Below are positions 8,960-56,759 of a stretch of DNA of 64,000 nucleotides, piece by piece. How positions within the stretch are numbered: position 1 is the first letter of the stretch; each line of letters begins with the position of its first letter. The stretch spans positions 1,736,001 to 1,800,000 of the forward strand of contig NC_019779.1 in the NCBI RefSeq assembly GCF_000317635.1, given 5' to 3'. Under the pieces are notes generated by a model that did not search any database, had not been told where the DNA came from, and was given only the letters and a program-made list of their open reading frames with translations. The position numbers were made by a program, and so were the translations under genes. The DNA comes from Halothece sp. PCC 7418. GTDB lineage: Bacteria > Cyanobacteriota > Cyanobacteriia > Cyanobacteriales > Rubidibacteraceae.

Positions 8960-9040
8960 TTAAGTGTGAGGACGCTCGAAATGACGTAAAGTGCCAAAGG
9001 CAATCGCGCCTAGAAATAACAAACTGGCACTGATTACAAC
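8960..9040 (-). pseudogene. C-terminal remnant of a small membrane protein
   Basis: Read leftward, 26 codons without a start encode IVVISASLLFLGAIAFG followed by TLRHFERPHT and a stop at 8960-8962. The hydrophobic stretch followed by a basic tail looks like the last transmembrane segment of a membrane protein. A stop codon lies immediately upstream, exactly where transposon-like DNA begins (about 9041), so the rest of the gene seems to have been cut off. I do not recognise the family. Confidence 0.35.
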
Positions 9041-9055
9041 GATTCAGTCAGAAAG

Positions 9056-9151
9056 CCATCGGCTTCAAACCGATGGACGGGGCTTACAAGCGTCGTCACC
9101 CTCGTTCCGACGACAGCCCCTCATGAATGACAAGGGAGGACTTTAGTCCTC
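9056..9151 (+). ncRNA. Multi-stem RNA-like structure, copy A
   Basis: In order: hairpin 9056-9062/9070-9076; outer stem GGGGCT (9079-9084) with AGCCCC (9115-9120); inner stem GTCGTC (9092-9097) with GACGAC (9109-9114); hairpin GAGGACT/AGTCCTC (9136-9151). The same order, with GGGGCTT-W-CAAG conserved and the inner stem changed on both arms, is found at 55367-55485. Preserved pairing with different sequence supports a structured RNA or single-stranded transposon end. A HEARO/IscB guide-RNA relationship is possible but unverified. Expression is unknown. Confidence 0.45.
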
Positions 9152-9327
9152 TGTGTCTGCTAGAATCGAACAAGCCCAAAGATGGTGAAAAACCCGTCAG
9201 GCTTATTAAAAAAGTAGAGATACAGCTAGACTTTTTTGTTTAGCCAAGGTCTGTAGGGCATCCTTGAACGGGCGCATCCTCACCTTCGCTCCGGCTTCGG
9301 GAGACTCCTTTCTGACACTCGATTTGT

Positions 9328-9390
9328 GATTTTAATCCATTGAGTGGTTTCGATTGGAATCCACGCGATTTTAATCCGTGGAGAGTTCAA
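9328..9390 (+). ncRNA. Orphan omega-RNA-like 3' end of a TnpB element
   Basis: GATTTTAATCCATTGAG (9328-9344) is followed by GAAT and the hairpin TCCACG (9360-9365) / CGTGGA (9377-9382), then GAGTTCAA ending at 9390. The layout (GAATC, stem-loop, GAG, TTCAA) matches the end of the intact TnpB element at 23791-23832 and the orphan at 21801-21864. No tnpB is left beside it. Sequence from 9391 would be the guide if this is a functional end. Confidence 0.5.
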
Positions 9391-9533
9391 GCCGTATCGG
9401 AGTCCCGCTAAAAGAAACACCAAACCGAGCAGTCATTCATCCTTCGATTTCAAACCGAAGGATGAATGACTGATTTTTCTGTAAGGAAGGAGAAATGGTT
9501 AACCCCAAGGGAATCTGGAGAGCGTTCCATCCG

Positions 9534-21727: not shown

Positions 21728-21864
21728 CCAGAAAAAAGGTTAACCAAGCGTCAAGGTCTGTCTCCCATTCTTGAGTGTGGGAAAGGAAGTGACGAAATGT
21801 GATTTTAATCCATTGAGTCACAACAAGAGTGAATCCATTGAATTTTAATCAATGGAGAACTCAA
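21728..21864. mobile_element. Remnant of a TnpB-type element (right end only)
   Basis: 137 bp between the ClC stop and the broken ABC gene. Its last 64 bp match the orphan end at 9328-9390 in order and largely in sequence. The ABC reading frame resumes exactly after TCAA at 21864, so this marks the right boundary. Neither a transposase gene nor a left end is present. Confidence 0.55.
21801..21864 (+). ncRNA. Orphan omega-RNA-like 3' end of a TnpB element
   Basis: GATTTTAATCCATTGAG (21801-21817), GAAT, then hairpin TCCATTGA (21834-21841) / TCAATGGA (21849-21856) and ending TCAA at 21864. Relative to the 9360-9382 hairpin two stem pairs differ on both arms, so pairing is preserved. The adjoining sequence that would be the guide lies in the broken ABC gene. 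Confidence 0.5.
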
Positions 21865-22573: not shown

Positions 22574-23785
22574 ATGCTCAGTCTTAACTACCAGTATAAG
22601 CTCAAAGTCAATAAACAACAGGCTTCTACCATTGATGAATGGCTAGATATTTGTAAGTCTGTTTATAATTTTGCCTTGAGAGAGCGTAAAGACTGGGTGA
22701 ATTCTAGAAAATGTCCAATTGATCGCTGTTCCCTTGAATCCGAGTATATCATTCCTCCCGATGCTCCTAGACCAACTTATGCAAGACAGTGTAAAAGTCT
22801 AGGAGTGGCGAAGAAAAAGTTTCCCCGATTAAAAATTCCACAATCTCAGGTACTTCAACAAACTCTAAAAGTTTTGGATGAAGCCTTTGCCAATATGTGG
22901 AAAAGAGGGTTTGGTTTTCCTAGATTCAAGAAAAAGATGCGTTCTTTTGTCCTTCCCCAAGTCAAACCAGACTGTATTCAAGGGAAAACGATCACTCTTC
23001 CCAAACTAGGAAAACTACCGTTAGTTCTTTCTCGCCCCATTCCTGAAGGGTTTATTCCTAAACAAGTCAGGATAATTAAGAAAGCAAGTGGGTACTACAT
23101 TAATATCAATCTTCAATTAGATGTTGATGTTCCTGATGTACCCCCTCATGGATATCCAATTGGCATTGATTTAGGATTAGAGAAATTTCTAGCAACCAGT
23201 GAAGGGGAACTCATTAAAGGTCATAAGTTCTTGAAGGAGTACGAAGGCAAGCTGAAATTGCTGCAAGGTCAACTCAAGAATAAGAAGAAGGGTTCTCGTC
23301 GCTGGAAAAACATCAGTCGTCGTATCGCAAGACTCTATGAAAAGATAACTAACTGTCGCAAGGATTTCTTCTATAAAACCGCTCATCACCTTTGTGATCA
23401 AGCAGGAATGATCTTTGTTGAAGACCTTAATCTCAAAGCATTAGGACGATCAGCGTTAAGAAAAGCGTGCCTTGATGCTGCTTGGGGAACATTTGTTAGC
23501 ATTCTGTCCTATGTTTGTTGGAAACGAGATGTTTATTTTGCCAAAGTTAACGCTAATGGAACCAGTCAAATTTGTTCTGAATGTGGGGTTAACTGCGGTA
23601 AGAAAACTCTTTCTGAACGGGTGCATAAGTGTCCAGATTGTGGGTTCCAAGCAGATAGAGACGTAGCGGCGGCGATGGTAGTAAAGAAACGTGGAGAAAG
23701 TACCGTCGGTGCGACGGGAAGAATGCTCGATCAGGGCAATGATTGCGGGGATGAAGTTTCGACTTTGTCTAGTATCACCCTTTGA
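22574..23785 (+). CDS. tnpB: TnpB RNA-guided nuclease (IS605 OrfB family)
   Basis: RuvC-like endonuclease guided by an RNA from its own 3' end, the ancestor type of Cas12. Residues 1-190 form the recognition part. RuvC motifs are intact: D199 (GIDLGLEKF), E283 (FVEDLNL) and D361 (ADRDVAAAM). A zinc ribbon is made of CSEC and CPDC (335-357). The length of 403 residues is typical and the frame is open throughout, so the protein could be active. ATG at 22574 starts in MLSLNYQYKL, a usual TnpB N-terminus. It lies inside a broken CHAT gene; the guide RNA end follows directly. Confidence 0.93.
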   Translation: MLSLNYQYKLKVNKQQASTIDEWLDICKSVYNFALRERKDWVNSRKCPIDRCSLESEYIIPPDAPRPTYARQCKSLGVAKKKFPRLKIPQSQVLQQTLKVLDEAFANMWKRGFGFPRFKKKMRSFVLPQVKPDCIQGKTITLPKLGKLPLVLSRPIPEGFIPKQVRIIKKASGYYININLQLDVDVPDVPPHGYPIGIDLGLEKFLATSEGELIKGHKFLKEYEGKLKLLQGQLKNKKKGSRRWKNISRRIARLYEKITNCRKDFFYKTAHHLCDQAGMIFVEDLNLKALGRSALRKACLDAAWGTFVSILSYVCWKRDVYFAKVNANGTSQICSECGVNCGKKTLSERVHKCPDCGFQADRDVAAAMVVKKRGESTVGATGRMLDQGNDCGDEVSTLSSITL

Positions 23786-23832
23786 GGCGAGAATCTCCCG
23801 TTATAATCTTTGATTTAACGGGAGAGGTTCAA
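23700..23832 (+). ncRNA. Predicted omega-RNA 3' part and right end of the TnpB element
   Basis: The end of tnpB and the 47 bp after it form the expected guide-RNA scaffold, closing with the hairpin CTCCCGTTA (23795-23803) / TAACGGGAG (23816-23824) and AGGTTCAA to 23832. The 5' limit is a guess. The guide would begin with TCAATGATCGCTTTC at 23833, which is CHAT-gene sequence. Its match beside a TTAC-type motif would be the uninterrupted CHAT gene. Confidence 0.6.
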
Positions 23833-55485: not shown

Positions 55486-55532
55486 ACAAAACCTAGATAT
55501 GTTATAATCACAATGGTGAACTTTTGAAGACG

Positions 55533-56759
55533 ATGGAACAGACGTTAACCCTAGTAGTAAAGCTGAATGTAGAACCTGAGCAAGCGGATCAACTTGAAGA
55601 GACTGCTCAGGCTTTTGCTAATGCTTGCTCTTGGATTAATGAAAACGTCAACCATCGCTTAACGAATAGGAACTCCATCCAAGCTGTTTGCTACAGCGAC
55701 GTTAAAGAAAGGTTTGGATTAAAGGCAAATCATATTGTCCGTGCTTGCGCCAGAGTAGGGGCTAACCGATCAACCGCCAAGGCAAAAGGTAGAAAAGTGA
55801 AAGGGTTTAAGCCTACTAGCTTTGATTGTGATGGTCGAACGTTCTCCTTTCGAGAAAAAGATTGGACTGTTAGCGTAACTACCCTTGGAAAGCGGTTAAG
55901 ACTCCCTTTAAGAGCTAGCAACTACCATCGCGGAAAGTTAACGGGACAGAAACCGACTTCGGCTCAAATCTGCAAGCATAAAGACGATCAGTGGTATGTC
56001 CACATTCAGCTTAAAAATATTCCCCCTACCCCTCAAAAGACATCTAATGTGATTGGGGTCGATTTTGGGAGAAGGGAAATTGCTAAAACCTCAACCAATC
56101 AAGGCTGGGACGGGAAGAACATTCAACAAAAACGAGATAGGTTTAGTCGAGTAAGAGCATCTCTTCAGAAGAAAGCATCCCAAGGCAAGTCCGCGTCGCC
56201 TGGGGTTTCCCCAGGCGTTTATGCCGGAGGCACAAGGTCGTCTCGACGCAGATGTCGAGAAGTCTTGAAACGGTTATCGGGACGCGAGAAGAGATATCAA
56301 AAATGGTTAAACCACAATATCTCAAAGCAAATCATTGAGGAGGCAAAGCAGACCAACTCAACGGTGGCAATTGAAGATTTAACGGGCATTCGGGAGCGAA
56401 CTAACCAGAAACCCAGAAACAAGACGGAAAGAAGACGGTCTAACAATTGGGCTTTCTATCAGTTAAGAACGTTCTTGGAATACAAGGGAATTAAAGAAGG
56501 AATTAAGGTAGTAGCAGTTCCTCCTGCCTATACCAGCCAAACTTGCCACTGTTGTAACCACATAGGAATTAGAACCAACAAAAATTTCAAGTGTTCTAAT
56601 CAGTTTTGTGGTTGGATTGGCGATGCCGACTTAAATGGTGCTTTAATGATTAAGAAATGGGGCTGCTCTATAAACCAGCCTGGAGGCTCGGAAGTTCTAT
56701 CCTGTAGAATTTCCAGGGCTACTGAAAACCCTAACCGAGCGCGAAGCGGGTTAGGGTAG
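55533..56759 (+). CDS. tnpB: TnpB-family nuclease with an in-frame palindromic insertion
   Basis: RNA-guided nuclease of the IS605 OrfB family, a different lineage from the one at 22574. Counted from ATG 55533, RuvC residues are D177 (VIGVDFGRRE), E281 (VAIEDLTG) and D364/D366 (GDADLNGAL). The zinc ribbon is CHCC plus CSNQFC. All are present. A stretch of about 15 residues, KSASPGVSPGVYAGG, interrupts the usual LQKKASQGTRSSRRR; it is encoded by a 45-bp palindromic insertion. The insertion keeps the frame, so activity is uncertain. I start at ATG 55533; an in-frame TTG lies nine bases upstream. The C-terminal 20 residues run into the right-end hairpin. Confidence 0.88.
   Translation: MEQTLTLVVKLNVEPEQADQLEETAQAFANACSWINENVNHRLTNRNSIQAVCYSDVKERFGLKANHIVRACARVGANRSTAKAKGRKVKGFKPTSFDCDGRTFSFREKDWTVSVTTLGKRLRLPLRASNYHRGKLTGQKPTSAQICKHKDDQWYVHIQLKNIPPTPQKTSNVIGVDFGRREIAKTSTNQGWDGKNIQQKRDRFSRVRASLQKKASQGKSASPGVSPGVYAGGTRSSRRRCREVLKRLSGREKRYQKWLNHNISKQIIEEAKQTNSTVAIEDLTGIRERTNQKPRNKTERRRSNNWAFYQLRTFLEYKGIKEGIKVVAVPPAYTSQTCHCCNHIGIRTNKNFKCSNQFCGWIGDADLNGALMIKKWGCSINQPGGSEVLSCRISRATENPNRARSGLG
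56187..56231. repeat. 45-bp palindromic insertion inside tnpB
   Basis: Core CGCCTGGGG (56197-56205), TTT, CCCCAGGCG (56209-56217). GGCA occurs at both edges, as a short direct repeat would. The length divides by three and no stop arises, so the gene stays open. I found no second copy in this window. Confidence 0.7.

Follow-up and report, generated by a model that had tools for sequence, protein, structure and literature searches.

Small tnpB-less IS605-type elements in Halothece sp. PCC 7418 that appear to retain a complete omega RNA

What are two short, tnpB-free sequences doing in a cyanobacterial genome if they look like the ends of TnpB guide RNAs? They lie at positions 9328-9390 and 21801-21864 of the window, the 64,000-nucleotide stretch of DNA analysed here, within a genome that is a single contig of 4,179,170 bp. 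The original prediction had described them as orphan, omega-RNA-like ends with shared flanking blocks, and on inspection both ends were in place, both sites lacked tnpB, and the shared block TGATTTTAATCCATTGAGT occurred exactly twice in the window, against 0.05 occurrences expected. An 18-base core of this block is found 13 times in the 4.18-Mb genome, one of them with two mismatches, and alignment of these copies showed the two "ends" to be the 3′ parts of longer elements. "Orphan" therefore holds for the absence of tnpB but not in the sense of an isolated end, since copy 1 is a complete non-autonomous transposon. What had been missed were the intact 353-bp copy 1, the truncated copy 2 of a sister family, and, elsewhere in the genome, approximately 15 relatives whose tnpB is full or broken and whose omega RNA is of the same kind. 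From their sequence, both sites appear to be copies of a roughly 350-base mobile DNA that has no enzyme genes and still carries a complete guide-RNA gene, apparently matching the TnpB type of its larger relatives; with the one lost and the other kept, the elements may borrow their relatives' transposase and nuclease.

Copy 1 belongs to family A and contains neither a TnpA nor a TnpB frame, and so no transposase gene. Its features, in window coordinates, are:

9034-9037, + strand: TTAC target and left cleavage site (CL), presumed TAM of the cognate TnpB, from the CL/guide code and sister empty sites
9038-9390, + strand: complete non-autonomous IS200/IS605-type element of family A, 353 bp, with its own left end
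9051-9076, + strand: left guide AAAG and left-end hairpin CCATCGGCTTCAAACCGATGG
9078-9120, + strand: 43-bp palindrome nested within the left end, missing from some copies
9158-9166, + strand: TGCTAGAAT, extended -10-like motif (TGnTAnnAT), conserved in tnpB-less copies
9172-9204, + strand: 5′ hairpin H0 with loop TGAAAAAC; its outer stem covaries
9213-9390, + strand: putative omega-RNA scaffold H1-H6 (model R1, 64.4 bits, E 1.7e-16)
9225-9244, + strand: feature inside the omega-RNA scaffold
9256-9275, + strand: hairpin H2, loop with TTGAAC forming the pseudoknot 5′ side; partly degenerate in this copy
9316-9346, + strand: hairpin H4, specific to tnpB-less families, with the shared block inside
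9357-9390, + strand: right end with guide GAAT, hairpin H6 and terminal GTTCAA (covariation, pseudoknot)
9391-9406, + strand: flanking DNA GCCGTATCGGAGTCCC, the would-be 16-nt guide, placed by analogy with ISDra2 (PMC8612924)

The terminal GTTCAA is both the 3′ side of the pseudoknot and the TnpA cleavage site. The 43-bp palindrome is precisely absent from three other copies (L001, L007 and L146), and some tnpB elements have a related palindrome, oppositely oriented, in their 3′ region; it therefore resembles a small mobile repeat nested in the element. CAGTCATTCATCCTTCGATTTCAAACCGAAGGATGAATGACTG, at window positions 9430-9472 and 40 bp beyond copy 1, is a solo left-end-like palindrome whose form acts as the left end in L002, L146 and L261, and CTTCGACAAG-type palindromes inserted within the H4 loop of L101, L102, L148 and L157 are reminiscent of small mobile repeats known to target the PATEs of Haloquadratum (PMC3119063).

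Copy 2 belongs to the sister family B (CTAC target, terminal ACTCAA) and has lost its left half:

21732-21864, + strand: 5′-truncated family B copy matching the omega-RNA scaffold (R1, 30.7 bits, E 6.8e-7), left end lost
21763-21782, + strand: hairpin H2, loop with TTGAGT
21789-21821, + strand: hairpin H4, GTGAC/GTCAC stem
21831-21864, + strand: right end with GAAT, hairpin CCATTGA/TCAATGG and terminal ACTCAA

As a truncated relic, it should no longer move. An unrelated TnpB (403 aa, labelled guided_TnpB) lies 700 bp downstream at 22574-23832 with its own right end, GAATCTCCCG...CGGGAGAGGTTCAA, and a second such TnpB is present at 55524-56759.

To establish how these elements move, we turned to sister copies inserted at the ends of rplA and cydB, where congeners are uninterrupted exactly at the TTAC junction and show no duplication. 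The flanks of window copy 1 had no match in congeners, giving no empty site for it, and the empty-site alignment of L002 was too poor for use. Left ends in this genus obey the CL/guide code in 30 of 30 cases (17 TTAC-AAAG, 13 CTAC-AGAG), a count that excludes the GTCATTCATCC-form left ends of L002, L146 and L092, which fall outside the search pattern; right ends carry the GAAT guide and TCAA cleavage motifs. Family A thus shares the motifs of IS608 (CL TTAC, CR TCAA, GL AAAG, GR GAAT; PMC5934647), whereas family B combines CTAC with AGAG, the change predicted by the IS608 rule that the first target base pairs with the second guide base, T-4 with A+17 (PMC5934647). The empty sites and the guide code identify the elements as IS608-type single-strand transposons and show that they move 3′ of TTAC (A) or CTAC (B), by the TnpA guide code and without target duplication. 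TnpA genes directly adjoining matching left ends exist in the genome.

The feature that first drew attention to the two sites was the right-end hairpin, whose arms read TCCACG/CGTGGA in copy 1 and TCCATTGA/TCAATGGA in copy 2. Column-by-column alignment bore out the claim that two stem pairs change on both arms, each fully compensated (C-G to T-A and G-C to T-A), and the covariation extends well beyond these copies: in a set of 26 distinct right ends drawn from this genome and related ones, pairing at the five outer positions is retained in 128 of 130 cells, compared with a mean of 90 for shuffled right arms and with none of 2000 shuffles reaching 128. The same palindrome, however, is bound by TnpA of IS200/IS605 elements as a single-stranded DNA hairpin (PMC5934647). 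The proposed covariation is real, but it is therefore not diagnostic of RNA, and we rejected it as proof of an RNA structure.

More specific evidence comes from R1, a covariance model trained solely on eight tnpB-bearing elements. It finds both sites at full length (9213-9390 and 21732-21864) and nowhere else in the window, and matches some 20 tnpB-less copies, these two included, across the full model. In the pseudoknot, the H2 loop TTGANN pairs with the last six right-end bases, NNTCAA, and the pairing is intact at both window sites and complete in 24 of 24 distinct elements, which fall into four covarying classes (AC/GT, GT/AC, CT/AG and CC/GG). All 48 variable pairs are paired, compared with a maximum of 42 in 5000 shuffles; although these shuffles ignore relatedness, the classes derive from separate families. 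Orphan families alone are paired in 20 of 20 cases, and those of other genera add the classes CA/TG and AG/CT, all of which pair. Two internal hairpins, H1 and H2, also covary, both over 21 sequences (score 0.506 versus 0.220 shuffled) and among the 12 tnpB-less copies alone (0.422 versus 0.179), in which 89% of cells are paired and 7 of 13 pairs show double changes. Compensatory changes have thus preserved the helices since the loss of coding capacity, and frequent G-U pairs fit an RNA on the + strand. The window elements are homologous to the tnpB 3′ end plus the right end, and an Rfam search at gathering and relaxed thresholds returned no relevant match. The description "omega-RNA-like" is upheld by the full-length model match, the covarying pseudoknot and the internal hairpins, and the elements seem to resemble an omega-RNA gene in all respects that can be examined by sequence.

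We also considered whether H0 is foreign to tnpB and rejected this, as a hairpin with the loop TGAAAAAC falls inside the coding sequence of tnpB relatives, at codons GEKP (L034, L038, L040, L150 and L153). Since tnpB-less elements retain this loop, the assumed start of the omega RNA may be too far downstream.

Using search tools for genome-wide counts, we found that R1 matches 34 places in the genome, which by our own sorting comprise about 15 tnpB-less copies, 15 linked to a full or broken tnpB and four partial matches. All 10 two-ended tnpB-less copies retain the scaffold, and two-ended copies reduced to their ends were not seen in this genome; given the close relationship of copies within a family, this universal retention may be a founder effect. 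Beyond this genome, R1 hits occur in 41 of the 148 genomes sampled from the order. With orphan status outside the genus defined by a tblastn search with a single TnpB over about 2 kb, omega-RNA-only elements appear to be present in other cyanobacterial families, with seven copies in one genome (G114; L229-L231 and L249-L252). These seven have distinct flanks, the TGATAAAAT motif, the TGAAAAAC hairpin, and target CTAT with guide AGAA, which the T-4:A+17 pairing predicts and which extends the IS608 code. Another genome (G035) has two such elements, and single cases occur in G048, G088, G095 and G120, the last retaining an N-terminal tnpB fragment.

Potential partners are at hand. Six long tnpB frames in the genome are open and share 90-100% identity with the query copy; five of them carry a family-A right end or a close variant. 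In target, right-end and pseudoknot types, family A matches TnpB group 1, and family B matches group 2. One congener (G002) has about six tnpB-less copies, yet tnpB of the same family only in broken form. As read from their sequences, the partner TnpBs (NCBIfam label guided_TnpB; no match by sequence to solved structures) have DPG in RuvC-I, GWN in place of the usual RuvC-II glutamate, a glutamate at an alternative position (E-SYTSKA-S) and no zinc-ribbon cysteines. Lacking the canonical glutamate and zinc ribbon, they have a nuclease activity that is only predicted, but it is plausible, as DPG with an alternative glutamate is the signature of Fanzors and their IS607 relatives (PMC10711439). 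This IS605-borne TnpB family, that of L090 and relatives (with an intact cognate frame at genome 2735827-2737116), is widespread in cyanobacteria; the reported DPG/alternative-glutamate clade is IS607-borne.

Signals for transcription are mixed. An extended -10-like motif, TGnTAnnAT, lies just 5′ of H0 in all subtypes (one copy reads TGCGATAAT); no -35 element was recognisable for it, a standard two-hexamer promoter scan of window copy 1 was negative, and a literature search for RNA-seq papers on the source strain yielded none of use.

On balance, we think it somewhat probable that these are PATE/MITE-like IS608-type derivatives lacking tnpA and tnpB that keep both ends and a whole omega RNA used by TnpB in trans. 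Such use, which the original prediction had set beside the possibility of simple scars, is the likely mechanism, and structure conservation within noncoding copies favours it. Transcription of the RNA would begin at the conserved extended -10-like site immediately 5′ of it, and about 16 flanking bases would become its guide; TnpB from full-length relatives in the same genome could take up this RNA and cut the empty site left by excision, after which sister-chromosome repair would restore the element, in line with the model put forward for ISDra2 TnpB acting in cis. With TnpA moving them and TnpB restoring them, the elements would parasitise both. Counting against use in trans are the missing -35, the negative promoter scan, the broken tnpB of the congener, the degenerate H2 stem of copy 1, the possible founder effect and the non-canonical RuvC-II and absent zinc ribbon of the TnpBs.

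A rival reading is that of passive non-autonomous elements and scars, moved by TnpA in trans, whose RNA goes unused and persists only through its adjacency to the right end. TnpA needs the right-end hairpin, guides and TCAA in any case, PATEs consisting of ends only or of ends with a tnpB tail have been described (PMC3119063, PMC7290912), some copies are truncated (window 21732-21864, L003, L011 and L089), and copies occur in the congener that has no intact tnpB of the same family. Yet the pseudoknot and H1/H2, which are not known TnpA substrates, keep compensatory pairing in noncoding copies, and ends-only two-ended copies were not seen in this genome, which leaves the passive reading credible but rather doubtful. 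It is improbable that the RNA is made but acts otherwise, by titrating TnpB as a decoy to the benefit of the host or of competing elements, or by regulating neighbouring genes: TnpB could be tied up by a scaffold bearing a chance guide, and the -10-like motif suggests independent transcription, but a decoy needs no matching target site, and the families keep TTAC or CTAC together with the pseudoknot type of one TnpB lineage. Hardly credible is that the covariation reflects only single-stranded DNA hairpins read by TnpA; this would account for the right-end palindrome (PMC5934647), but in the pseudoknot the right end pairs with a loop approximately 90-215 nt upstream and corresponds to that of the ISDra2 omega RNA (PMC10097598), and H0, H1 and H2 are internal. 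We therefore retain use by TnpB in trans as the preferred explanation.

Standalone, trans-acting omega RNAs of IscB were reportedly described by Altae-Tran in 2021; they are likewise guide-RNA copies without a nuclease gene, although the IscB-type RNA lies upstream of its gene. The ISDra2 omega RNA (reRNA) comprises the tnpB 3′ end and the right end, is about 150 nt long, takes its guide from the flank (PMC8612924) and has a pseudoknot in which its 3′ end pairs with a stretch further upstream (PMC10097598). The elements described here have a similar make-up and pseudoknot but no tnpB, and their stems H3-H5 are shortened or replaced. PATEs of Haloquadratum and Halanaerobium are likewise IS605-derived, with subterminal palindromes, no transposase and no target duplication, and a PATE-like element of Halanaerobium retains 28 nt of the left end and the right end together with the final 58 nt of tnpB (PMC7290912). 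Reports on PATEs do not treat the retained part as a guide RNA, whereas here we find a complete, covarying omega-RNA scaffold with a pseudoknot and a conserved -10-like motif. By sequence, then, the window elements look like PATE-like IS605 derivatives (PMC3119063, PMC7290912) with a complete omega RNA.

More broadly, and tentatively, cyanobacteria may harbour mobile guide-RNA genes of approximately 290-440 bp, each with two ends, its own promoter and an omega RNA, that exploit TnpA for movement and TnpB for retention in trans, every insertion reprogramming the guide. The elements offer omega-RNA scaffolds that are natural and minimal (about 140 nt in family B), and with them one could clearly test whether the persistence of non-autonomous elements is aided by TnpB. 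Should the RNAs be used, TnpB serves more than its own transposon, parasitic elements bring it reprogrammed guides, and the finding would bear on the origin of trans-acting guide RNAs, a step towards tracrRNA and CRISPR arrays.
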